Source: a virus. Taken from it: a stretch of 64,000 nt of DNA. The position numbers and the translations under genes are program-made. Numbering within the stretch: the first letter of the stretch is position 1; the number at the start of each line of letters is the position of its first letter. The stretch covers positions 1 to 64,000 of the IMG/VR virus record IMGVR_UViG_3300037340_000026; one strand, written 5' to 3'. Shown one piece after another: positions 17,020-40,200 of the stretch. The notes below the pieces were generated by a model. That model did not search any database. It saw nothing but the letters and a program-made list of their open reading frames with translations, and had not been told where the DNA came from.

Positions 17020-19383
17020 ATGAACCGTCTACTTGTTTTGCTCGGCGCCCTGCTACTCGCCGCGAATGCCTTTGCAGCCTCCCCGAATGGCTCGACCGTT
17101 CCAATCACCGATGCCGCGGGCAATACATGGTCCCTCACCGGAGGCCAGGTCTACGAAAACGGCAAGGTCTCTGCGGTCACGAAGAATGTCACGCTGCTGC
17201 TCTACCAGAATGGCCTTATCTATCAGCGAGCGAATGCTAACAATGGCTGGTGGGTGTGGAAAGGCGGCGTTTGGGTAGCGACGACTGACCCGACGGGCAG
17301 TTCGAGCAGCAGTTCGTCGGGCTCATCGAGCAGCTCGGGCAGTGGGTCATCGTCCTCCAGCGGCAGCGCGTCATCTTCATCGTCGTCGGGTAGTTCTAGC
17401 AGCAGCGGCGCCTCTTCATCGAGCGGTGGTTCAAGCAGCAGTTCCAGCGGCGGCTCTATACCAGCGCCAGCAGCGGCTGTCGGATACAACAAAAATACCT
17501 TCAGTTCCACGACGTGGAATGCCAGCAAGGGGCCGCTCTACTCCTACAACTTCTTCGGCAACACCGAACCCGCTGGTAGCATCGTTCAGAATTCTGACGG
17601 CTCGATCACGATGGGCCAGAGCGTTAGTACCCACTACGGCGTCTCGAGCGCGCTATCTGTCCCGGTAAGTGCAAGCGCCCCTCACGGCTGGATCGGCGAG
17701 GCATTCGGCGGGGGCGGTTATTTCGAGTCAACGTTCTCGCTCGCTGGAACTCCGAACGGCTCGCAGCCCACAGCCGCAGACTGGCTCAACGATATCGAGA
17801 ATCAATCGGAAGGATATGGGACTTTAAACAACTGGATTGAGATCGATAAGCTAGAGGACAACGTCGCCAACATTACGCATTGGGGACAGGCTATCCATGA
17901 CTGGTACGGCGTGCGAGGTTCTGGCGCCCAAGTGCAGCCCAACGTTGGCAGCCCGGTCACGGTGCCCAATGGCGGGAACCTGAACCAGTCCCACAGGTAC
18001 GGATTCTTATGGGTGACCGCTACCCCAAACAGTAAAGGCTACGCTAAGTTTTTCCTCGATGAGGTGCAGGTCGGCACGACCCTATCCTGGAATCAATACA
18101 GCGCCACGCAGCCAAACCCGCCGACGATCTCTCCGCCTACAGCGGGGAACATCATGGATGCGCGCCACCTGGCGCTGATACTGGGCGGCATCACGCGCAC
18201 TCCGATGCACCTGACTTCGGTCAAGGTGTGGCAGGCATCAAGCGCCGAAAACTTGGTATATGGGGGATCGTTCAGCAGTAGCTCATCCTCGAGCAGTGGT
18301 GGCTCGTCAAGTTCCTCCGGTAGCAGCTCATCGAGCGGTTCGTCTTCATCGAGTAGTTCGTCTTCCTCAAGCGGCGGCCCTCCCGCAGCCTTCGGTATCA
18401 AGGTCAATGGAAACAAGCTCGTCAGCACCCTTAACGGCTCGACCGTCATCCTCAACGGCATGAACATGTCGGGGTGCGAGGGACCAGCTTCCCGTTGCAC
18501 CGTCATCGGTAACGCCGGCACGGGCTTCTGGGGCGGTGCGTTCAAGAACGCCCACAAGGGCACGAACGCCGTACGCATACCGCTCAACGCGGTCCTGTGG
18601 CAGGCCGCTTCCTATCAGGCTTCGGTGGCCAAGGCGGTGGCAGACGCGACGGCCTCTGGCCTCTACGTGCTGCTGGATCTGCACTGGAGCGCCCCGCCGG
18701 GGCAAGCCGTACTGGGACAGCCGGGCTTCCCAGACGCGGCCAATGCGATCCCATTTTGGAAGCAGGTTGCTGACGATTTCAAGAGCAATCCGGCAGTTAT
18801 CTTTGAGCTGTTCAATGAGCCGTTCGGGGACAATAACTACGGGAATAGTGAGAGCAGTGCCAACGGCGTCTTTAAGGCGGGGGCGGAAGCGCTGTTTTTA
18901 GCTTCTGGCGGTGCGTTCAAGCCATTCTGCCATCAGAACAACAGCGGCGGCAACGCGATGCAATGCACGTCGGATGTTGGCAAGCCATGGTCTAACTCAA
19001 ACTTTACCTACCAAGTCGCGGGCGAACTCACGCTGCTCGACACGATCCGAGGCGAGGGCGCGACCAACGTCGTGCTGGCATCCCCTTTCTGGTGGGCCGG
19101 CGAGCCCGAGACGTGGTTGCAGATTTACACTGCGAATGGCAATCCTGACCCGCTCAAGCAATTTGGCATGAGCATGCATGATTATGGGTACAGCCACGGG
19201 ACTGGTCCCTTGCTCGGCGTATTAGCCGCTGGTTATCCGATCGTCATCACGGAGTTCAGCCAAGGATCGAACGTGTCAAACCTTGGCGGCGTAGCGTGGA
19301 CGAACAGTCAGAATGTTGGCTTGATCGCGTGGGGACCGAATTGTTGGGCAGGTCCGCTAACTATGAACCCTACAGGATGGTAG
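17020..19383 (+). CDS. Modular secreted-type fibre: lectin-like domain plus GH5 glycoside hydrolase
   Basis: 787 residues with a clear Sec signal (LLVLLGALLLAANAFAA). Residues 24-92 form a small beta module. A polyserine linker (about 94-148) leads to a concanavalin-like domain (about 150-413, with YSYNFFGNTEPAGSI). A second polyserine linker (about 417-452) leads to a GH5 cellulase-like domain (456-787) showing VRIP, LLDLHW, ELFNEP (acid/base Glu), MHDYGY, ITEF (nucleophile Glu) and IAWGPN. It should cut a beta-glucan or similar host polysaccharide. Polyserine linkers are typical of proteobacterial cellulases, so host origin is likely. It ends immediately against the convergent early operon. 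Confidence 0.85.
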   Translation: MNRLLVLLGALLLAANAFAASPNGSTVPITDAAGNTWSLTGGQVYENGKVSAVTKNVTLLLYQNGLIYQRANANNGWWVWKGGVWVATTDPTGSSSSSSSGSSSSSGSGSSSSSGSASSSSSSGSSSSSGASSSSGGSSSSSSGGSIPAPAAAVGYNKNTFSSTTWNASKGPLYSYNFFGNTEPAGSIVQNSDGSITMGQSVSTHYGVSSALSVPVSASAPHGWIGEAFGGGGYFESTFSLAGTPNGSQPTAADWLNDIENQSEGYGTLNNWIEIDKLEDNVANITHWGQAIHDWYGVRGSGAQVQPNVGSPVTVPNGGNLNQSHRYGFLWVTATPNSKGYAKFFLDEVQVGTTLSWNQYSATQPNPPTISPPTAGNIMDARHLALILGGITRTPMHLTSVKVWQASSAENLVYGGSFSSSSSSSSGGSSSSSGSSSSSGSSSSSSSSSSSGGPPAAFGIKVNGNKLVSTLNGSTVILNGMNMSGCEGPASRCTVIGNAGTGFWGGAFKNAHKGTNAVRIPLNAVLWQAASYQASVAKAVADATASGLYVLLDLHWSAPPGQAVLGQPGFPDAANAIPFWKQVADDFKSNPAVIFELFNEPFGDNNYGNSESSANGVFKAGAEALFLASGGAFKPFCHQNNSGGNAMQCTSDVGKPWSNSNFTYQVAGELTLLDTIRGEGATNVVLASPFWWAGEPETWLQIYTANGNPDPLKQFGMSMHDYGYSHGTGPLLGVLAAGYPIVITEFSQGSNVSNLGGVAWTNSQNVGLIAWGPNCWAGPLTMNPTGW

Positions 19384-21857: not shown

Positions 21858-21976
21858 GGTGCGAACCCCTGGCCTAGCCGTGAGATTTCACGACACGTAC
21901 TCCATACGGAGCCAGTTCGGTCCAGGGGTGCGGCTTTGCTCATATTGATTTCGACCGTCTGCTCTGGTCTGTTCAT
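21854..21976 (-). CDS. 40-residue early peptide
   Basis: ATG 21976 overlaps the upstream stop (ATGA) and its own stop overlaps the next TTG start. The product is hydrophilic (MNRPEQTVEINMSKAAPLD). The double coupling is the main support. Confidence 0.45.
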   Translation of the reverse strand: MNRPEQTVEINMSKAAPLDRTGSVWSTCREISRLGQGFAP

Positions 21977-22383: not shown

Positions 22384-22845
22384 TCAGAGAGAGAGTCGTA
22401 ATTGCCACAGCACGCGATCAACGCCGCCATTGCCAAGCGGATCTCGGATGGCCTTGAGTTTCAGACTCGATTGCGCCCAGTTGCCACGCGCCGGCAGATC
22501 CTTAACGCGCTCAAATCCCGCCGCACGCACGCTGGCGCCGGATTCGTCCGCTTGGGTATAGGTCACACAACGCCTGTAGCCCATCGCCTTGGCAGCGCGT
22601 CCACAGGCGCCGTAGAGCATCGAGTTGGCATTGCGCGTCCCATCTGTACAGGTTCGGTTTATCTCAAGCGTTAGGCCGTCATCGAAATGACGCGCCACAG
22701 GGCGCCCGGCCATGGCTACGCCGACCATCTTCTCACCATCCCAAAGCGCCACGCTGAACTTGTGCCCGCGCGGCGGCTTGTTATGTCGATGCAGTTGCGA
22801 CACGAATGCGCAAGCTTGGCGAAAGGTCACGGGCCGGATATTCAT
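22384..22845 (-). CDS. XF1762-family (GNAT-like) protein
   Basis: 153 residues with the family pattern: HRHNKPPRGHKFSVAL, MVGVAMAGRPVARHFDDG, LEINRTCTDGTRNANSML, AAKAMGYRRCVTYTQ and ESGASVRAAGFE. These proteins look like reduced acetyltransferases and are found widely in phages; the target is unknown. Confidence 0.8.
   Translation of the reverse strand: MNIRPVTFRQACAFVSQLHRHNKPPRGHKFSVALWDGEKMVGVAMAGRPVARHFDDGLTLEINRTCTDGTRNANSMLYGACGRAAKAMGYRRCVTYTQADESGASVRAAGFERVKDLPARGNWAQSSLKLKAIRDPLGNGGVDRVLWQLRLSL

Positions 22846-31315: not shown

Positions 31316-31319
<4 letters not shown>
30414..31319 (-). CDS. Lipoprotein with Ala-Pro-rich spacer
   Basis: 301 residues from ATG 31319 (ATGA overlap; a longer frame upstream overlaps another gene). 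Signal peptide and lipobox LLAGC, then GGGGSGS, then about 60 residues of Ala/Pro/Thr spacer, and a beta-rich, Cys-containing globular domain to the end. Expected to be anchored in the outer membrane with the domain held away from it. Early expression would suit surface exclusion of other phages (inference). Confidence 0.65.
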
Positions 31320-31998
<679 letters not shown>

Positions 31999-32011
<13 letters not shown>

Positions 32012-32295
32012 GGAGCTTTCTCCCAAGCAGCGATAGCTTCAGACGTGCACACCGACACGCTGGTGATATCGCGCAACTCGATATCTGCCGATGGCCCGAT
32101 GCGAGCGCCGCTCACTGGCCCGTTTGCAGCGAGCCCGATAAAGCCTTTCTGTGTTGCGGGCCAGTACAAGCAGTTACGTGCAGCCCGCAGATGGATAATT
32201 GCACCGACTGTGTCGGTGGCATATCCGAAAAACACGCCTCGGTGACTGGTCGTTACTACCACTGCGCGTTCGCCACTAGATTTTTTAGTCGCCAT
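31999..32295 (-). CDS. DUF6948-like protein (full-length copy)
   Basis: 98 residues from ATG 32295, set by an AAAGGAGA site. Pattern: VVVTTSHRGVFFGYAT, LRAARNCLYWP, FIGLAANGPVSGARIGP, ELRDITSVSVCT and AAWEKAPW, as in DUF6948 proteins of phage early regions. Probably a small beta-barrel. A truncated duplicate is at 24835. Function unknown. Confidence 0.75.
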
Positions 32296-32897: not shown

Positions 32898-32974
32898 GCC
32901 GCGGTAGCTCAGTGGTAGAGCAGTTGACTCGTAATCTCCTGGTCGCTGAGTTCGATTCTCAGCCCGTGGCACCA
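32898..32974 (+). tRNA. tRNA-Thr(CGT)-like, atypical
   Basis: Acceptor GCCGCGG/CCGTGGC with one G-U, D-arm GCTC/GAGC, anticodon loop CTCGTAA (anticodon CGT, Thr ACG), T-arm CTGAG-TTCGATT-CTCAG and an encoded CCA. Two of five anticodon-stem pairs (T-C and T-T) fail and the T-stem can extend to six pairs, so it has 77 bases. It may be decayed or recently altered. Confidence 0.7.
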
Positions 32975-32992: not shown

Positions 32993-33358
32993 ATGGCCAA
33001 GTTATTTGAGATCTCCCCAGAGCAGCGGGCATGGCTTGATAGCCGGCCGCCAGTCATCAAGGCAATGACCGACCGATGGCCGCCGAATCTGCTCTATCGC
33101 CTCAAGACGACCGATCAGCGCGTAACGCTGTATTCGTACTCCGAGGGCGGCACAGTTACCGTGGACGTGACGGGAGACTTCAACCTGCACATTATGGACG
33201 TGCAAGTATTTGGCATCGACCCGAATGACCTTGAAGAATGCGATCTTCCAGGCGGCGAGCCGCTAGGCACAATGCTCGTAGAGGATAAGGACGTGGAAGA
33301 CTACATCGATAAGATCCGCCCGCTGATACTGGCACAAAGAAAACGAGGAACGCACTAA
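32993..33358 (+). CDS. Hypothetical phage protein
   Basis: 121 residues. ISPEQRAWLDSRPPVIKAM, RWPPNLLYRL, TLYSYSEGGTVTVDVTGDFN, VFGIDPNDLEECDLP. The pattern recurs in small early or middle phage genes. No enzymatic motif. The AGGACC upstream of ATG 32993 could serve as ribosome site. Confidence 0.6.
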   Translation: MAKLFEISPEQRAWLDSRPPVIKAMTDRWPPNLLYRLKTTDQRVTLYSYSEGGTVTVDVTGDFNLHIMDVQVFGIDPNDLEECDLPGGEPLGTMLVEDKDVEDYIDKIRPLILAQRKRGTH

Positions 33359-33359
33359 C

Positions 33360-33524
33360 ATGACCGACTGGCTCGAGGTTCAGGTCTTCGATGAAGAAGA
33401 GATCAACGCCGTGCGTAGCGGAGAGCTTGACGGGACGGTGTACAAAGATGCCGTCTATGCCGACGTTCAAGCGCTTGCGAAGTGGCGGGAGAGGGCGGCG
33501 ATGGGGCGGATGAAGAATGAATGA
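33360..33524 (+). CDS. 54-residue hypothetical protein
   Basis: ATG 33360 lies two bases after the previous stop; the frame overlaps the next gene start by eight bases. Acidic first half (WLEVQVFDEEEINAVRSGEL) and a helical C-terminus. Function unknown. Confidence 0.5.
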   Translation: MTDWLEVQVFDEEEINAVRSGELDGTVYKDAVYADVQALAKWRERAAMGRMKNE

Positions 33525-33795
33525 CATTACTCAACGTCTGAAGTCCGAGGCACGCCGCTGCTTCACTGGCGATTGCGGTGTCTGCGCTAGTTGCAATGCG
33601 GTCAAGGAAATCACTACGCTGAGGAAGCACATTGTGGAAGCAATCGAGTTACTGATCGAGGCTCGACAGTGGAAACGGAAAGGCTATCCGGTTATGCGTG
33701 ATCGAGTCGATCACTTCATCAGGAATGTTCCGTATCCTCCGTGTGATCGGTCGCTTCGGAAACAATGTTTGCCACAGGGAGAAAAGCATGCATGA
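33517..33795 (+). CDS. Hypothetical protein with CxxC motif
   Basis: 92 residues. CFTGDCGVCASC near residue 15 suggests a metal site; helices follow (KEITTLRKHIVEAIELLIEA). Overlaps both neighbours. Function unknown. Confidence 0.55.
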   Translation: MNDITQRLKSEARRCFTGDCGVCASCNAVKEITTLRKHIVEAIELLIEARQWKRKGYPVMRDRVDHFIRNVPYPPCDRSLRKQCLPQGEKHA

Positions 33796-34069
33796 CGGGA
33801 TGGTTAGATGCCGTAACTGCATCGGCGGTCGATGGGAAACCGAGTGCTGCAACGGTTCAGGGGGCTGCGACTGCCGGGGCCAGCCTATTGACATGGGCCC
33901 GTGCAATGTCTGCGGTGGAACCGGCTGGCATGGTCCTGATGCGAATACGCGGGCCAATCTGCGGCAGATCGAGGGACAGTGCTTCATCGGCAACGGGCCC
34001 AGCTCTGGTGAATGGGCTGATATCGGCACGCGCGGCCACTACCCACTCCACGGAGGAGAGAAACCGTGA
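33788..34069 (+). CDS. Zinc-finger protein, DnaJ-like Cys repeats
   Basis: 93 residues from ATG 33788 (overlap with the previous stop); a longer upstream frame overlaps the 33517 gene. CRNCIGGRWETECC, CDCRG and CNVCGGTGW resemble the CxxCxGxG repeats of DnaJ-type zinc domains. Probably a small zinc-binding early protein. Confidence 0.55.
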   Translation: MHDGMVRCRNCIGGRWETECCNGSGGCDCRGQPIDMGPCNVCGGTGWHGPDANTRANLRQIEGQCFIGNGPSSGEWADIGTRGHYPLHGGEKP

Positions 34070-34263
34070 TTTGTACTGAGGATCTGAGCGACATCCTACC
34101 GCTGCACATTTGCGGGAAGATCGTCGGCGTTGCCTCGTATCGCGGCGACTTTCTAGTCGTTGCATGCGAACGCGGCCTTTTCAGGGTATGGGATGACGGG
34201 CTCGGATTTGGTCCGCGCGCAGCAGCGGATAACGAATCTGAGCGCGGCAACCTTCCCGCCTAG
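34066..34263 (+). CDS. Small phage protein, paralogue of 29483 product
   Basis: 65 residues from GTG 34066 (GTGA overlap). ICTEDLSDILP, CGKIVGVASYRGDFLVVAC and FRVWDDGLG match the minus-strand relative at 29483-29692 nearly throughout the core. Probably a beta barrel. Function unknown. Confidence 0.65.
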   Translation: MICTEDLSDILPLHICGKIVGVASYRGDFLVVACERGLFRVWDDGLGFGPRAAADNESERGNLPA

Positions 34264-34273
34264 GAGAAAAGCC

Positions 34274-34516
34274 TTGAATACGCAGACTGCCGATAGAGCT
34301 TGGAAGATCATTCAAGATCATGCCGATCTTGCCCGCGCTCGCAAGGTTTTATCGGTGCATGAATTCCGCCAGATCGTCGGCATCATTGGCACTGCGATGG
34401 AAATGCAGTCTTGCGACAAATGCGGCGCCGAGTGGACGGCAAATGAGAAGGTTGCTTGCCCGGTATGTCCATCTGATCCGGGTTGCAGACCGGGATGGCT
34501 CTATGAGCACAATTGA
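34274..34516 (+). CDS. Zinc-ribbon protein
   Basis: 80 residues from TTG 34274, chosen for a strong AGGAG site 9 bases upstream; an earlier frame overlaps the preceding gene. Helical first half (ARARKVLSVHEFRQIVGII) and a zinc ribbon CDKCGAEW...CPVC. Function unknown. Confidence 0.55.
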   Translation: MNTQTADRAWKIIQDHADLARARKVLSVHEFRQIVGIIGTAMEMQSCDKCGAEWTANEKVACPVCPSDPGCRPGWLYEHN

Positions 34517-34529
34517 GTAACGCCTGAAT

Positions 34530-34727
34530 GTGATTTTTACGTGGCAAGATAGGACGCTGTGTCTTTCAGACTGGGCGCGCTATTTGGAAATACACGTGCA
34601 AACGTTATTGGGTCGCATCCGGCGTGGATGGCCGATGGAGAAAGTGCTTTCTGTCACACCAGTCATTGGCCGCAATCAGCACGGTGACCCATGCTCCAGC
34701 CGTACGATCATCAACAATCCAACATAG
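34530..34727 (+). CDS. Orphan homing-endonuclease-type DNA-binding domain
   Basis: 65 residues from GTG 34530. LSDWARYLEIHVQTLLGRI then RRGWPMEKVLSVTP aligns with the C-terminal DNA-binding segment of the endonuclease at 41592 (LADWAKRFDIPYSVMLWRY, RKGWTEAKLMQP). No nuclease part accompanies it, so it is a relic or a free DNA-binding protein. It overlaps the helicase start. Confidence 0.5.
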   Translation: MIFTWQDRTLCLSDWARYLEIHVQTLLGRIRRGWPMEKVLSVTPVIGRNQHGDPCSSRTIINNPT

Positions 34728-36070
34728 ACGCGATCCGCGAGCATTTCCGGCGCGGGGTAAAATCTGTATTGTGGTATCTACCTACAGGCGGCGGTAAAAG
34801 CCTCGCCACCGGATTCATGCTGCTCAAGGCATCTAACGCTGGCCACCGTTGCTGGTTCATTGTCCACAGGCGCGAATTGATCCGCCAAACCGAGAACGTA
34901 TTTAAAGAACTCGGTTTAGACTACGGCGTGATCGCTGCTGGCCGAACAATGCAACCGTGGAAACTGGTGCAGATATGCAGCGTTAATACACTCGCGCGTC
35001 GAATAGACAAACTTGAGAAGCCGCACCTAGTTGCCCAAGACGAGTGCCATCACCTGCCCTGCAAGTCCTGGTCCGATGTGCTCACGAAAATAGGCCGTTG
35101 CTACATGGTGGGATTATCGGCGAGCCCGATTCGTTTAGACTCGCGCGGGCTCGCCGACTACTTTGGCGCAATGGTAGTTGGGCTCTCGATTCGCGATCTG
35201 ATTGCAGAAGGCTATTTGTCGCCATTCCGTACCTTTGTGCCGGCGACGGTAGATGTGTCTGGACTGCACACTCGCATGGGCGATTATGTAACCGCCGAAG
35301 CCACGCAGTTAATGGACAAGCCGTCTATCACTGGATCAGCGGTCGCCGAGTATCAAAAGCTGTGCGACGGCAAGCGCGCGATTGTGTTCTGTGTCTCCAT
35401 TGAGCACAGTAAGCATGTGGCGGCGCAGTTCCGCGATGCAGGCTATGCAGCGGTTCATATTGACGGAACATTTGCTGATGAAGTGCGCGACGGGGCCATT
35501 GCGGATTTTGAGCGCGGCGCGATCCAAATTTTGTGCAACGTTGATTTGTGCGCGGAGGGACTCTCGATCAATGCTATTGAGTGTGTGATACTTTTGAGGC
35601 CGACGCAATCGCTCGGTCTATATATTCAGCAGGTCGGGCGCGGACTGCGCACATGGCCGGGAAAAAAGGAGCTTACTATCCTCGACCACGTTGGTATGAC
35701 TATCAAATTTGGATTGATAGATGAGCCGCGCGAATGGGCGCTGACATACAGTGAGGACAAGAAAACGAAAACGGCATCTCTATCAGTCCGCGTCTGCCCC
35801 AAATGCTTCGCCGCCAGCTCAGCCCGCGCCCTCTCGTGCTCCAACTGCGGAGAGCCGTTCGCGGTCGCGCCGCGTTCAATGGTTGATGAGCGCGAAGGAG
35901 AGCTCGTCGAGATCACGCCGGAAATGATTGCTCGCAAGGAAGCGCGGCACGAACAGGGCATGGCGCAATCATTAGAGCAGTTGCGCGAGATTGCGCGCAG
36001 GAAGGGATATTCGAGTTTTTGGGCCGACCACGTTTATGCGGCACGAATGGCTAAGAGGGCGGTGAGATGA
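34691..36070 (+). CDS. DEAH-type superfamily 2 helicase with C-terminal zinc ribbon
   Basis: 459 residues. Motif I LPTGGGKS (about residue 32), Ia FIVHRRELIRQT, motif II QDECHH, motif III GLSASP, motif V LCAEGLSINA and motif VI QQVGRGLR are all present. Residues about 366-395 hold a zinc ribbon (VCPKCFAASS...CSNCGE). This type couples ATP hydrolysis to duplex unwinding and resembles UvrB/RAD25-like phage helicases used in replication or repair. It ends 8 bases before the tRNA-Pro gene. Confidence 0.85.
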   Translation: MLQPYDHQQSNIDAIREHFRRGVKSVLWYLPTGGGKSLATGFMLLKASNAGHRCWFIVHRRELIRQTENVFKELGLDYGVIAAGRTMQPWKLVQICSVNTLARRIDKLEKPHLVAQDECHHLPCKSWSDVLTKIGRCYMVGLSASPIRLDSRGLADYFGAMVVGLSIRDLIAEGYLSPFRTFVPATVDVSGLHTRMGDYVTAEATQLMDKPSITGSAVAEYQKLCDGKRAIVFCVSIEHSKHVAAQFRDAGYAAVHIDGTFADEVRDGAIADFERGAIQILCNVDLCAEGLSINAIECVILLRPTQSLGLYIQQVGRGLRTWPGKKELTILDHVGMTIKFGLIDEPREWALTYSEDKKTKTASLSVRVCPKCFAASSARALSCSNCGEPFAVAPRSMVDEREGELVEITPEMIARKEARHEQGMAQSLEQLREIARRKGYSSFWADHVYAARMAKRAVR

Positions 36071-36078
36071 GCGAATCG

Positions 36079-36153
36079 CGGGGTGTAAGTCATTGGTAGA
36101 CATCCTGGCTTGGAACCAGGGAGTAGCTGGTTCGATTCCAGCCACCCCGACCA
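36079..36153 (+). tRNA. tRNA-Pro(TGG)
   Basis: 75 bases. Perfect acceptor CGGGGTG/CACCCCG with discriminator A and encoded CCA, anticodon stem CCTGG/CCAGG around loop CTTGGAA (anticodon TGG), T-arm GCTGG-TTCGATT-CCAGC. The D-stem is three pairs. Reads Pro CCA and wobble codons. Confidence 0.9.
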
Positions 36154-36167
36154 TTTAGGAGGGCGAT

Positions 36168-37394
36168 ATGCCGATTCAAACGACTTTCAAAGATGATGGC
36201 TGCGCGCGAGTCAAGGTGTGGACGACTGACATTGAGGAATCCGCGCTCAAGCAGTTGCATAACCTTTCGACGCTGCCGTTCATCCATAAGCACATCGCTG
36301 TCATGCCAGATGTTCATTGGGGTATGGGCTCGACCGTGGGCAGCGTGATACCTACCATCAAGGCAATTGTCCCGGCTGCGGTCGGCGTAGATATTGGCTG
36401 CGGGATGGTTGCGCATAAGCTGAACCTGCGAGCAGACCAACTACCGGATAGCCTCCACGCTGCGCGTACTGCGATTGAGGCGGCGATCCCACATGGCCGT
36501 ACCGATAACGGCGGCAAGGGAGATCGCGGCGCCTGGAACGATGTACCGCCTGCTATCTCCGAAATCTTCAAGGGACTGGCCGAGGACAAGCGTTTCCGTG
36601 CTATTGCCGAGAATGAGCCAAAGGCGATGGCCGGGCACGTCAATGCGGAGCGCCACCTTGGCACCCTCGGGACTGGGAACCACTTCATCGAGCTTTGCCT
36701 GGATAAGAACGACGGCGTGTGGCTGATGCTGCATAGCGGGAGCCGTGGTATCGGCAATCGGCTTGGGACTTATTTCATCGCCAAGGCGAAGTCCGAAATG
36801 GAGCGCTGGCACATCAATCTGGCCGACCCTGATCTAGCCTACTTGCCGGAAGGCACCGATGCGTTCGGAAACTATTGGAAGGCGGTGAGTTGGGCGCAGG
36901 ACTTCGCGCAGGCCAATCGATCGATCATGATGGATAGTGCTATACGCGCCGTCTCCGAGGCTCTAGGCGTAGCCGTGGTGACCAGCGAGCACGCAGTTAA
37001 CTGTCACCACAATTACGTCGCGATTGAGAACCACTACGGCCAGAACGTCTATGTGACGCGCAAAGGCGCTGTCCGCGCACGCGAGGGCGACATGGGGATC
37101 ATTCCTGGCTCAATGGGCGCCCGCAGTTTCATCGTACGTGGCAAGGGCAACCCGGAATCGTTCTGCTCGTGTTCGCACGGCGCGGGTCGGCGAATGAGTC
37201 GTGGCGAAGCAAAGCGCCGATATAGCGTAGCGGACCTTGAGGCACAGACCGCTGGCGTCGAATGCCGCAAGGACGCTGATGTGATCGATGAGATTCCTGA
37301 GGCGTACAAATCTATTCAGGAAGTCATCGATAATCAGAGCGATCTGATCGATGTAGTTGCTGAGCTGCGGCAGATCGTGTGCGTGAAGGGATGA
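36168..37394 (+). CDS. rtcB: RtcB-type RNA ligase
   Basis: 408 residues, full length for bacterial RtcB. Catalytic and metal motifs are all seen: MPDVHWG, VGVDIGCGM (metal-binding Asp, Cys), GTLGTGNHFIE, LHSGSRGIGN, HAVNCHHNY, IIPGSMGARSFIV and CSHGAGRRMSR (the His that carries GMP). RtcB joins 5'-OH ends to 2',3'-cyclic-phosphate or 3'-phosphate ends using GTP and manganese, as needed to repair cleaved tRNAs. An AGGAGG-like site lies before ATG 36168, 14 bases after tRNA-Pro; tRNA-Gln begins at the base after its stop. Confidence 0.95.
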   Translation: MPIQTTFKDDGCARVKVWTTDIEESALKQLHNLSTLPFIHKHIAVMPDVHWGMGSTVGSVIPTIKAIVPAAVGVDIGCGMVAHKLNLRADQLPDSLHAARTAIEAAIPHGRTDNGGKGDRGAWNDVPPAISEIFKGLAEDKRFRAIAENEPKAMAGHVNAERHLGTLGTGNHFIELCLDKNDGVWLMLHSGSRGIGNRLGTYFIAKAKSEMERWHINLADPDLAYLPEGTDAFGNYWKAVSWAQDFAQANRSIMMDSAIRAVSEALGVAVVTSEHAVNCHHNYVAIENHYGQNVYVTRKGAVRAREGDMGIIPGSMGARSFIVRGKGNPESFCSCSHGAGRRMSRGEAKRRYSVADLEAQTAGVECRKDADVIDEIPEAYKSIQEVIDNQSDLIDVVAELRQIVCVKG

Positions 37395-37469
37395 TCGGAG
37401 ATCGTCTAATCGGGAGGACACGAGACTTTGACTCTCGTAACGTTGGTTCGAACCCAACTCTCCGAGCCA
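37395..37469 (+). tRNA. tRNA-Gln(TTG)
   Basis: 75 bases. Acceptor TCGGAGA/TCTCCGA with U1-A72 as usual for Gln, discriminator G and encoded CCA; anticodon stem CGAGA/TCTCG, loop CTTTGAC (anticodon TTG); T-arm GTTGG-TTCGAAC-CCAAC. Starts directly after the rtcB stop codon. Confidence 0.9.
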
Positions 37470-37482
37470 GCGCACAGCCACC

Positions 37483-37851
37483 ATGACCGCCTCCGACCTC
37501 CAGGCCGAGATCATGCTGGCGCTGTCGACAGGCCCCCACGTTCGGCTGTGGCGCTTCAACAGCGGATCGGCATGGGGCGGCTCGATTGTGAGGCGCACAG
37601 CGACGCATCTCACGCTCTCGCCTTACTATCCCGTCAAACTCGGGCCCACCGGCTACCCGGATTTATCGGGTTGGAGTGTCACCAACGGCATCGCGGTGTG
37701 GAGCGGCGTGGAAGTAAAATTCGGCCGCGACCGCATCCGCCCCGCGCAGCAAGCCTTCATCGACCTAGTGTTGGCGTCTGGCGGACGGGCTGGGGTCGCG
37801 CGGTCGGTTGAGGACGCGCGACGGATAATTTCGTTGGAAGTTCGAACGTGA
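37483..37851 (+). CDS. VRR-NUC domain nuclease
   Basis: 122 residues. Typical stand-alone VRR-NUC: an N-terminal Glu (LQAEIMLALS), RLWRFNSGSAWGG, GYPDLSGW (metal-binding Asp), VEVKFGRDRIRPAQQAFID (E-x-K) and ARSVEDARRII. Such enzymes are PD-(D/E)XK nucleases acting on branched or flap DNA in replication and recombination. It starts 13 bases after tRNA-Gln. Confidence 0.85.
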   Translation: MTASDLQAEIMLALSTGPHVRLWRFNSGSAWGGSIVRRTATHLTLSPYYPVKLGPTGYPDLSGWSVTNGIAVWSGVEVKFGRDRIRPAQQAFIDLVLASGGRAGVARSVEDARRIISLEVRT

Positions 37852-38093
37852 AAAAGGAAGTTATGACTTTACATGCAAAGGTCTGCCAAACGTGCTGGGC
37901 TGCGAATTCAGAGCGTGCATTCGTTTGTACCAATTGCGGCGAGCGCTTCAAGGAATCCCCGCGTTCAATTTTATGCTGGCTTGGAATTCATAAATGGTAC
38001 ATCCCGTGTCCGGGTGCTTTCTTTGGACCGGATAAAATACAAGCGGTGGAATGTCGGCGATGTGGCTTAACCAAATGGAGCAAACCGGCATGA
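37848..38093 (+). CDS. Stand-alone zinc-ribbon protein related to the helicase tail
   Basis: 81 residues, ATGA-type overlap with VRR-NUC. VCQTCWAANSERAF then CTNCGERFKESPRS matches the zinc ribbon at the end of the 34691 helicase at 17 of 29 positions. A second Cys/His cluster follows (CWLGIHKWYIPC, ECRRCG). Possibly a DNA-binding accessory. Confidence 0.65.
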   Translation: MKKEVMTLHAKVCQTCWAANSERAFVCTNCGERFKESPRSILCWLGIHKWYIPCPGAFFGPDKIQAVECRRCGLTKWSKPA

Positions 38094-38109
38094 AGGGCAG
38101 CTGCGCCCA

Positions 38110-38138
38110 TTGACCTAAACCCCCCGACGGCCTATAAC
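38110..38138 (+). promoter_or_regulatory. Sigma70-type promoter
   Basis: TTGACC (38110-38115), 17 bases, TATAAC (38133-38138), 48 bases before the RHH-like gene. Likely drives the replicative helicase unit. Confidence 0.6.
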
Positions 38139-38185
38139 TGTCCCTGCTAGGCACTGACAGCCTATGACAGACAGGGAATATAACA

Positions 38186-38377
38186 ATGGCCACGGATTTA
38201 CCTGGTTTTACCGTGTATGTGACGCCGAAGCTGTTTGCAACACTGCGGACGCTGTCAGCGAAAGAGGGGCGGAGCCTGTCGAATTTCGTCGCCGTGCATT
38301 TGCACGGTCAGTTTGGCAGCGGGGACGTACCGCTGCGCAAGAAACCCAGAACCACGAATAATAGCACAGCGGCGTAG
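38186..38377 (+). CDS. Ribbon-helix-helix-like small protein
   Basis: 63 residues. A strand (GFTVYVTPKLF) followed by two helices (ATLRTLSAKEG, SLSNFVAVHLHG) fits an Arc/MetJ fold. It stands directly after a promoter and before the VapE-type gene, so it may regulate that unit. Confidence 0.6.
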   Translation: MATDLPGFTVYVTPKLFATLRTLSAKEGRSLSNFVAVHLHGQFGSGDVPLRKKPRTTNNSTAA

Positions 38378-38385
38378 TTCCCGCC

Positions 38386-39993
38386 GTGGCCAAGGCGCGT
38401 GTCGCGCTTGACGGCGTTGCTATTCTCGTTAGCGAGCCTGAGGCTCAAGTGCTGTTTGTTTCATCGCCTAAGGCCCGGGGCGCCGCCACACTCCTACTTC
38501 CGCACTACGTGAGCGTGTGCTGCGACGGCCCCCCCACGCAAACCGACTTTCGCGAGCTTAAGGGTCGTCAAATCGATATCTGGGCGCCTGGCGGTGCGGA
38601 CGGCGCGACATGGGCTGCGGCGATAGCGGGCTGCGTCTTCGACATCGCGCAGCGGGTGCGCATCATCAACGCCAGCGATGAGCCCGTCGGCCGAGACCTC
38701 CCGCATTACGTCGCTGAGGGCTGGGATGAAGGTCGCGTGGTCCAGTGGGCAGCGGACCACGCCCGGGTGGTTGAGGAGCCGAAGACTGGTCGCAAACATA
38801 ATGGCGTGGCGCCGATCGCACAAGCCGGCGAATCAGTCGCGGTAACTTGGCAATCGCTCGCGCTTGAGTGCAATAGCGGCGGCGTGCCGCATCCTACTAT
38901 CGGCAACGCGGCGCGCGTGCTCGCACAGCACCCGATGACTGCCGGTAAAATCTGGTTCGATTCGTTCCGCAATAAAATCATGCAGACACATGACGGCATC
39001 GCAGGGCCATGGCGCGACGTCGATGATCTGCGCCTCCTAGAATGGCTGCAGCAATCTCTGAAGCTCTCGAAGATCGGGCTGCAAGTCGTGCAACACGCTG
39101 TTGAACTCGCCGCTTTCAACAACGCACGCAACTCGGTCGTTGACTGGCTCGAGTCGCTTGCTTGGGACCGCGAGCCAAGGTTATCCAATTGGCTCAGCGA
39201 TTTCCTCGGCGCACCAAATACTGAATACGCCCAAGCCGCAGGCCGCAACTGGCTCGTCAGTATGGTCGCCCGCGCTTACAAGCCCGGCTGTCAGGCTGAT
39301 CACATGCCGGTGCTCGAGGGCGCCTCGGGGCGCGGCAAATCCTCTGCGCTTGCGGTGCTCGGCGGCGAGTGGTATCGCGCTGCGCCGCAGGCATTTGGTT
39401 CGAAGGAATTCCTTGAAGTCATTCAAGGCGCATGGCTGGTCGAAATCCCAGACATGGTCGGCTTCGGCCGGCGCGAGCACACGCAGATTATTTCGGCCAT
39501 CACGACGCGCTCGGATCCGTATCGAGTTGCCTACGGCAGACACGCCGAGGATCACCCGCGCGTGACTATCTTCGTGGCCACTTCGGAAAATGACGAATAC
39601 CTAAAGGATTCACGCGGAGTGCGCAGGTATTGGCCGGTTCGCTGTGCCGATATCAATCTCGATGCGCTCAGCAGCGCGCGAGCGCAGTTGTTCGCGGAAG
39701 CAACCTCCGCCTTCAAAGCCGGCGCTTCGTGGCACGAGATGCCTGTCGACGAGACCGCAGCAGAGCAGGCAGAACGCCAGGAGATTGATATGTGGCTCGA
39801 ACCAATCCAGTCATTTTGCATAGGGCGCACCATTGTTACGGTCTCGGACCTAGCAACAGAATGTCTTAAGATCGAACGGTCAAAACAGTGTCAGTCTGAC
39901 GCCATACGAATAGCTAAGTGTTTGAGAGCTATAGGGTTTTCGTGTCGCGTAGAACGCATCAGCGGTGTGATTACTAGGGTCTATAGGCGATGA
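38386..39993 (+). CDS. VapE/VirE-type replicative helicase (primase-helicase-like)
   Basis: 535 residues from GTG 38386. The C-terminal two thirds contain the virulence-associated E P-loop: Walker A LEGASGRGKSS, Walker B AWLVEIPDM, sensor VATSEND and Arg finger KDSRGVRRYWPV. The N-terminal 120 residues follow the path of the Toprim primase domain seen in relatives but its acidic positions are replaced (VSSPKARGAATLLLPHYV, IWAPGGADGATW). It should unwind phage DNA at the origin; priming would need another protein. The candidate origin lies immediately downstream. Confidence 0.8.
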   Translation: MAKARVALDGVAILVSEPEAQVLFVSSPKARGAATLLLPHYVSVCCDGPPTQTDFRELKGRQIDIWAPGGADGATWAAAIAGCVFDIAQRVRIINASDEPVGRDLPHYVAEGWDEGRVVQWAADHARVVEEPKTGRKHNGVAPIAQAGESVAVTWQSLALECNSGGVPHPTIGNAARVLAQHPMTAGKIWFDSFRNKIMQTHDGIAGPWRDVDDLRLLEWLQQSLKLSKIGLQVVQHAVELAAFNNARNSVVDWLESLAWDREPRLSNWLSDFLGAPNTEYAQAAGRNWLVSMVARAYKPGCQADHMPVLEGASGRGKSSALAVLGGEWYRAAPQAFGSKEFLEVIQGAWLVEIPDMVGFGRREHTQIISAITTRSDPYRVAYGRHAEDHPRVTIFVATSENDEYLKDSRGVRRYWPVRCADINLDALSSARAQLFAEATSAFKAGASWHEMPVDETAAEQAERQEIDMWLEPIQSFCIGRTIVTVSDLATECLKIERSKQCQSDAIRIAKCLRAIGFSCRVERISGVITRVYRR

Positions 39994-40200
39994 ATTGTTA
40001 CGGTGTTACACGTTTCACCCCTGTTCGCCTAGAGTGCTCTGTGCGCGTGCGTAGGCGCGTGCGGGTGCGCGTATGTATACGGATATATATACTGTAACTA
40101 CTGTAACACTGTAACAAGAGTGTAGAATCAATGGCTTGGGAGTTACGGTCTTGTTACGGTTTGTGGCCTAGACCGTAACGCCTGTGGCTGTCGCTCTCGG
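39994..40200. other. Candidate replication origin with GTTAC elements
   Basis: Eight GTTAC or GTAAC pentamers: 39997, 40005, 40094, 40103, 40111, 40142, 40153 and 40175. Four extend to GTTACGGT or its complement. Between them is an AT-rich segment (40074-40093, with ATATATAT) beside a GTGCG-rich stretch. No gene is convincing here. Position after the replicative helicase fits an origin or its regulatory site. Confidence 0.5.

Follow-up and report, generated by a model that had tools for sequence, protein, structure and literature searches.

Why would a phage encode an RtcB RNA ligase packed between two tRNA genes? The arrangement lies in a stretch of 64,000 nucleotides (hereafter, the window; positions 1 to 64,000 of IMG/VR record IMGVR_UViG_3300037340_000026), which sits within a viral record of 70,219 bases. 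A near-identity search with 24.9 kb of the window returned short matches only, in two phage records, indicating that the window phage has no close isolate. The locus was annotated as follows.

34691-36070, plus strand: helicase gene, left flank (Pfam ResIII and Helicase_C)
36073-37394, plus strand: block of tRNA-Pro and rtcB common to the window and viral locus L005 (4405-5724 there; blastn)
36079-36153, plus strand: tRNA-Pro(UGG) (ARAGORN; Rfam tRNA, 56.8 bits against a gathering score of 29)
36157-36162, plus strand: AGGAGG, likely ribosome-binding site of rtcB (read from the sequence; inside the 14-bp gap between tRNA-Pro and the ATG)
36168-37394, plus strand: rtcB, 408 aa (PF01139, E = 1.7e-128; phrog_1075, E = 1.4e-145; aligned conserved residues)
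37395-37469, plus strand: tRNA-Gln(UUG) (ARAGORN; Rfam, 60.5 bits against a gathering score of 29)
37483-37851, plus strand: VRR-NUC nuclease gene, right flank (Pfam VRR_NUC, 6.3e-9)

The position of rtcB between two tRNA genes, reported in the first-pass annotation, is correct. ARAGORN and ORF coordinates reproduced both of its details: the gap between tRNA-Pro and rtcB is 14 bp, and tRNA-Gln begins (37395) directly after the end of the rtcB stop codon (37394). The stop codon ends exactly at the 5' end assigned to tRNA-Gln by ARAGORN (window 37392-37395), so that processing of a joint transcript at this point would leave an mRNA ending at its stop codon. The helicase gene ends 8 bp before tRNA-Pro. 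The neighbours of rtcB encode the helicase, the VRR-NUC protein and a VapE-like protein (Pfam), and the third tRNA gene of the window, tRNA-Thr(CGU) at 32898-32974, lies 3.2 kb upstream of the cassette (ARAGORN). The tRNA-Pro of the window has the anticodon loop CTTGGAA with adenine at position 37 (A37), a C1-G72 pair, A73 and an encoded CCA end.

The window RtcB covered the full PF01139 profile (1-426 of 426) with 429.9 bits (cut-off 27). According to alignments to Thermus TTHA1785 and PH1602, residues D75, C78, N171, H172, H189, H281 and H337 correspond to conserved residues of solved RtcBs. The earlier statement that all catalytic residues are present thus stands as far as the conserved residues are concerned; which of them bind metal, accept guanylate or act in catalysis is presumed here. 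By its sequence, the protein belongs to the family of ligases that connect 5'-OH ends with ends bearing a cyclic phosphate or 3'-phosphate. Phage RtcB as such is not rare, with relatives encoded in 659 of 50,697 phage records.

The tRNA neighbours of viral rtcB were then characterized in a first set of loci, found with the window protein alone (the best 80 of 120) and all scanned with ARAGORN. A tRNA gene lay within 300 bp of rtcB in 25 of these best 80 of 120 loci, and in 20 it was tRNA-Pro; the five loci with other neighbours (L010, L013, L018, L027 and L053) belong to a single RtcB cluster at 90% RtcB identity. With the window uncounted, 19 of the 66 clusters in this set had a tRNA within 300 bp, and proline was found in 18 of the 19. 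Two more RtcB query families (P0002 and P0003) contributed 49 loci, or 47 after the query loci L322 and L338 were dropped; nine of the 47 had a tRNA within 300 bp of rtcB, eight of them tRNA-Pro and the other tRNA-Ser (L328). tRNA-Pro had served to find both families, which makes their relatives a biased sample even without the query loci. For all sets and the window together (the first set being the best 80 of 120), a tRNA within 300 bp of rtcB was present in 29 of 111 RtcB clusters, and it was proline in 27 of the 29. This answers the question posed in the first-pass annotation of whether relatives keep rtcB beside tRNAs: a part of them does, nearly always with tRNA-Pro. The remaining 82 of 111 clusters, with the same scope of the first set, had no tRNA within 300 bp, a figure that is an upper bound because the sequence of a few loci stops within 300 bp of rtcB.

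The proline identity of the tRNA beside rtcB is not due to chance. Of 96 distinct tRNAs in the same loci that were separated from rtcB by more than 500 bp, proline accounted for 2. In fetched stretches of 17 records, all picked for showing the pairing except G008 and that of the window, it accounted for 3 of 64 tRNAs more than 300 bp from rtcB, all three in G008. Relatives of the window terminase (the best 80 of 170 stretches), none of which contained an rtcB frame (80 of 80), had proline in 2 of 28 tRNAs and in 1 of 10 lone tRNAs. A control with relatives of the VapE-like protein yielded one tRNA in 46 loci and was uninformative, and a second isotype background (26 proline tRNAs among 1,818) was set aside, as pattern-selected proline tRNAs were missing from it. 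In six fetched records the tRNA-Pro beside rtcB was the sole tRNA found, and there it is not one of a large set; these records were all picked for the pairing and so provide no test of it.

The tRNA-Gln of the window appears to be incidental and is probably outside the recurring unit. It lies beyond the block shared with L005, and in terminase relatives (the best 80 of 170 stretches, where no rtcB was found) tRNA-Gln makes up 5 of the 10 tRNAs that occur alone. Gln(UUG) was present within 300 bp of rtcB in 3 of the 29 clusters with a nearby tRNA.

The link between rtcB and tRNA-Pro is frequent, not general, as shown by the clusters without a nearby tRNA and by cultured phages. Among 21 isolate rtcB loci, picked from hit lists and thus not random (one of them, L507, ends 19 bp past rtcB), 20 had no tRNA within 300 bp of rtcB, and Rfam at a relaxed threshold found none within that distance in the first 12. 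The sole exception was Tunturiibacter phage Tunturi_5, with tRNA-Pro(CGG), G37 by reading, in a stretch holding eight tRNAs; a tRNA-Pro model, R1, likewise placed tRNA-Pro beside rtcB in this one of the 21 loci. Rhodococcus phage Weasels2 has tRNA-Pro(UGG) 1.3 kb from rtcB. In the L010 group, Lys, Glu or Met tRNAs adjoin rtcB and there is no proline tRNA, and in L018, where 40 tRNAs were found in 40 kb, three proline tRNAs lie far from rtcB and all have G37. A permuted tmRNA gene, alphaproteobacterial in type, lies 1.3 kb away from rtcB in Mesorhizobium phage Cp1R7A-A1 (L372:280-665, minus strand); a phage tmRNA is also described in the Lacusarx paper, in the part of it available.

Bacterial rtcB was considered as the source of the pairing and is not favoured: any tRNA was present in 8 of 80 bacterial loci of up to 5 kb each (the best 80 of 170). 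Four of these best 80 of 170 had a tRNA within 300 bp of rtcB, namely L440 (Pro), L441 (Pro), L443 (Arg) and L456 (Gln and Met). The tRNA-Pro of L441 has G37 and lies on the strand opposite to rtcB, while L440 and L456, short contigs with 13 and 4 tRNAs, may be viral.

The pairing occurs in many arrangements. In an orientation count with one locus per cluster (28 proline tRNAs), tRNA-Pro was on the same strand as rtcB in 24 cases, upstream in 12 and downstream in 12, and on the opposite strand downstream in 3 and upstream in 1. On a tree of 148 RtcB rows, of which 29 carry proline (a quick search, for which the program warns of long branches), the proline label required 26 changes compared to a mean of 26.8 for shuffled labels, and the supported branches alone force at least 15 changes, gain or loss alike. 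By this tree, the pairing is scattered. The two nearest ORFs on each side were compared for 31 paired loci (123 ORFs), with the near-identical pairs L054/L055 and L076/L077 set aside: no third gene recurred around the pairing, and only two ORF families linked different paired loci (window/L028 and L032/L356). The spread of orientations, the scatter over the tree and the differing neighbours indicate that rtcB and tRNA-Pro join repeatedly in different settings. The IMG/VR loci are fragments, and they may have a common ancestry that is hidden from the RtcB tree.

One such junction could be followed at the DNA level. A blastn comparison of window 33001-40000 with the 7,517 bases of L005 gave a shared block in three pieces of 71-81% identity, which begins 6 bp ahead of tRNA-Pro and finishes at the rtcB stop codon; the two tRNA-Pro genes are identical at 72 of 75 positions. 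Nothing in this window segment beyond the block matched L005, and among nine window proteins the sole other match was the terminase, at 28% identity. Since the two viruses share the DNA from tRNA-Pro to rtcB while their flanks are dissimilar, these genes make up a two-gene unit, and we infer its transfer as such. In L514, a relative of the window backbone, tblastn matches to the helicase (42%) and VRR-NUC (30%) are separated by 11 bp, and neither a tRNA nor rtcB was found. In L518, L523 and L546 both genes are present at a spacing of 0.7 to 1.2 kb, and these loci gave neither an rtcB match nor a tRNA. The simplest reading of these alignments is that tRNA-Pro and rtcB entered between the helicase and VRR-NUC genes, the alternative being loss in the other lineages.

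Model R1 was run on 100 sources, comprising loci that lack the pairing, certain isolates, and L503. It revealed a 3'-truncated tRNA-Pro with A37 directly after rtcB in L025 (6177-6266) and L342 (6317-6405). Both break off in the T arm, as though a different stretch of DNA continued from within the tRNA, which could reflect either recombination at this point of the tRNA or a join made during assembly. These truncated tRNAs were excluded from the counts.

Proline tRNAs beside viral rtcB share a feature at position 37: 26 of 28 (one locus per cluster) have A37, and that of L016 has G37. In bacteria the methyl group of m1G37 is added to G37 by TrmD. G37, methylated to m1G37, is the state described for bacterial proline tRNAs (PMC13191261, available part). 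Consistently, a bacterial tRNA-Pro(UGG) pattern gave G37 in 15 of 16 hits from 15 genomes encoding RtcB; two genomes gave no hit, and a backward control hit once, so one of the 16 may be due to chance. The sole bacterial A37 hit (G040:C14) belongs to a 25-tRNA array (L503:70-5786) that includes five proline tRNAs, this UGG one among them. L503 is a stretch of the genome that also holds L452 (a Polyangia assembly), and no phage sign was seen among the listed ORFs around this hit.

A viral scan with a pattern allowing A or G found 13 A37 and 67 G37 among the 80 rows listed of at least 120. With the same pattern, the neighbours of rtcB comprised 11 A37 versus 1 G37 (Fisher's test against the 80 listed rows, p = 4.8e-7). 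Viral rows being mostly G37, A37 beside rtcB is not simply how viral proline tRNAs look. In the reverse search, an rtcB frame was found in 7 of at least 120 viral stretches matching the A37 pattern versus 0 of at least 120 matching G37 (p = 0.014), and in six of the seven it lay within about 200 bp of the tRNA. Where tRNA-Pro was the sole tRNA in the stretch, the counts were 5 of 15 for A37 and 0 of 19 for G37 among the matches listed (p = 0.011). These stretches were 1.3 to 15 kb long, and the contig that yielded one of them, L152, had also yielded L049 in the first set. The A37 form also occurs apart from rtcB: no rtcB frame was found in 113 of the at least 120 A37 stretches, and the terminase relative L557 (among the best 80 of 170) has tRNA-Pro with A37 as its lone tRNA and no rtcB in its 5.8 kb.

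The proline tRNAs beside rtcB look sound by sequence. A C1-G72 pair together with A73 marks proline identity. All 30 distinct tRNAs start with C1 and 29 have G72 and A73, the exception being that of L347, cut short by ARAGORN; 27 of 30 have a CCA end. In a cloverleaf alignment of 27 of them (L016, L079 and L347 were omitted, as their ends looked cut), compensatory changes occurred at 18 of 21 stem pairs.

We consider it somewhat probable that tRNA-Pro and rtcB form a phage counter-defence cassette, one that sustains the decoding of proline codons during cleavage of proline tRNAs. A host or a competing element would cut proline tRNAs, and the enzyme responsible would be a metal-independent nuclease acting on the anticodon loop and leaving 2',3'-cyclic phosphate and 5'-OH ends. 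RtcB would rejoin the halves of tRNA-Pro, and the phage would at the same time supply a replacement tRNA-Pro with A37 beside the anticodon. Because A37 replaces G37, this tRNA is probably cut poorly, and it would be independent of m1G37. In principle, all four proline codons can be read by one UGG tRNA, and a single gene would then be enough. That a ligase is paired with tRNA-Pro suggests that proline tRNAs suffer damage. A37 adjoins the anticodon, and this is the loop in which phage tRNAs are reported to differ from those host tRNAs that are cut (PMC10264068, available text); in Salmonella, YrlA, a tRNA-like RNA encoded with rtcBA, gave no fragments when the nuclease acted (PMC7790460, available text). 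Together these may point to repair combined with a resistant replacement. The first-pass annotation had set RtcB and tRNAs against host anticodon nucleases in general: the anatomy fits this proposal and supports it in part, the isotype specificity pointing to proline tRNAs, with tRNA-Gln seemingly incidental. The data hint at bacteria that may defend themselves against viruses through cleavage of proline tRNAs, although the open-licence literature searched contained no defence nuclease specific for proline tRNA. A ColD-like CDI toxin domain is reported to cleave tRNA-Gln as well as tRNA-Pro. A broader version, in which phages of many lineages repeatedly assemble and pass around an antidote of RtcB and A37 tRNA-Pro against a widespread, as yet undescribed bacterial immune nuclease reading GGG at positions 35-37 of proline isoacceptors, is possible but doubtful. 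If the counter-defence reading is true, genome anatomy alone predicts the target of the nuclease (proline tRNA), the chemistry of the ends (cyclic phosphate and 5'-OH) and the letter by which the immune nuclease is escaped (position 37). The loose idea of phage tRNAs plus a ligase would then become a specific, testable pair, and rtcB beside tRNA-Pro with A37 would serve as a signature for finding the phages and hosts concerned.

Other explanations account for parts of these observations. Genes for rtcB and tRNAs might merely gather in a permissive spot, a generic translation island, the proline excess reflecting the shared ancestry of a few cassettes. Some tRNA-rich phages do hold rtcB among many tRNAs (L007, with 29), the L010 group has no proline tRNA beside the gene, one cassette is common to the window and L005, and closely related RtcBs, L340 and L344 for example, have the same arrangement. 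An island of this kind predicts mixed isotypes, however, and proline was found in 27 of 29 clusters (all sets and the window, the first set being the best 80 of 120). The proline label is also no more clustered on the tree than shuffled labels, and in terminase relatives, in whose stretches no rtcB was found, proline is infrequent (2 of 28 tRNAs, 1 of 10 lone ones; the best 80 of 170), which makes this account unlikely. Codon compensation, the most widely accepted account of phage tRNAs (PMC10264068, available text), would have tRNA-Pro(UGG) serve CCA-rich phage genes and lie near rtcB by chance, but it predicts no link with rtcB. Comparison of 31 paired with 99 unpaired loci, in phages only, showed no difference in the CCA share of proline codons (p = 0.44), nor did proline content differ between these loci (p = 0.13). 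Codon usage as a driver of the pairing was accordingly ruled against, and the account is very improbable.

Two further accounts separate the roles of the two genes, RtcB repairing other RNAs in both, and we give each a low probability. A37 might free tRNA-Pro from dependence on host TrmD or S-adenosylmethionine, as would suit its prevalence beside rtcB and the report, in the available part of PMC13191261, that m1G37 suppresses +1 frameshifting by tRNA-Pro. This leaves rtcB as the partner unexplained, yet among the matches listed rtcB was the largest family of ORFs flanking A37 tRNAs that is not homing-endonuclease-like (5 A37 loci, 0 G37); the families were labelled by reading the sequences, and two-locus A37 families exist too. 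Alternatively, the phage tRNA-Pro might act as a decoy that occupies the nuclease, as suggested for YrlA: when an anticodon nuclease was induced in Salmonella, no YrlA fragments appeared, and competitive inhibition was named as possible (PMC7790460, in the text available). Against mere binding, the phage tRNAs keep C1-G72, A73, mostly an encoded CCA end and paired cloverleafs, which suggests that they are charged and used in translation.

The counter-defence reading has precedents. Action of RtcB together with tRNAs against tRNA damage has been proposed for jumbo phages (PMC7824862) and Rhodococcus phages (PMC13313380), and tRNA repair alone for phage RtcB (PMC5648845). The ligases belong to the same family as that of the window and the general repair proposal is the same; in their available text, the three papers treat tRNAs generally and name neither proline, nor position 37, nor a two-gene unit. 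The general idea is thus known, whereas no report of a proline or A37 link to phage RtcB was found in the open-licence literature searched.

In phage T4, which also has tRNAs, Pnkp and Rnl1 likewise provide RNA repair against tRNA cleavage, in that case by PrrC. The T4 enzymes heal the ends before joining them and repair tRNA-Lys (available parts of PMC10264068 and PMC12409363), whereas the window has one RtcB and tRNA-Pro. The T4 ligase is an ATP-grasp enzyme (PMC7824862, available part), unlike the RtcB of the window unit, and neither Pnkp nor Rnl was detected when 20 window proteins were compared with Pfam and 10 with PHROGs. Phage tRNAs with changes in the anticodon loop have been proposed to escape tRNases (PMC10264068 and PMC11555353, as far as available). 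The window tRNA-Pro may resemble them, its A37 contrasting in that loop with the G37 usual in bacteria; the main text of PMC10264068 does not contain the words RtcB, Pro or proline, and the A37 resistance of the window tRNA-Pro is putative. The bacterial rsr-yrlBA-rtcBA operon similarly combines RtcB with a tRNA-like RNA left uncut by an anticodon nuclease, its fragments not being seen during nuclease action in Salmonella (PMC7790460, in the available text). According to the same text, this operon has a Y RNA, RtcA and control by RtcR, and in a Salmonella pnp mutant fragments of two other tRNAs became slightly more abundant when RtcB was lost. The window has a full tRNA-Pro instead, and the Pfam scan of 20 window proteins found neither RtcA nor RtcR.

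Several other features were observed elsewhere in the window. An Rfam DUF3800-IX RNA motif is located at 21860-21930 on the minus strand (47.1 bits against a gathering score of 36.8). A gene at 22384-22845, also on the minus strand, encodes a Mom-like DNA modification protein (phrog_1384, E = 2.7e-39) and is a possible anti-restriction gene. At 17020-19383 on the plus strand, a 787-aa protein contains a cellulase domain of glycosyl hydrolase family 5 (E = 3.5e-17). A long low-complexity repeat extends over 31316-32026 (minus strand) and 31567-32245 (plus strand); it reads as runs of Gly/Ser/Tyr/Asp on one strand and of Arg/Ser or Ala/Val on the other.
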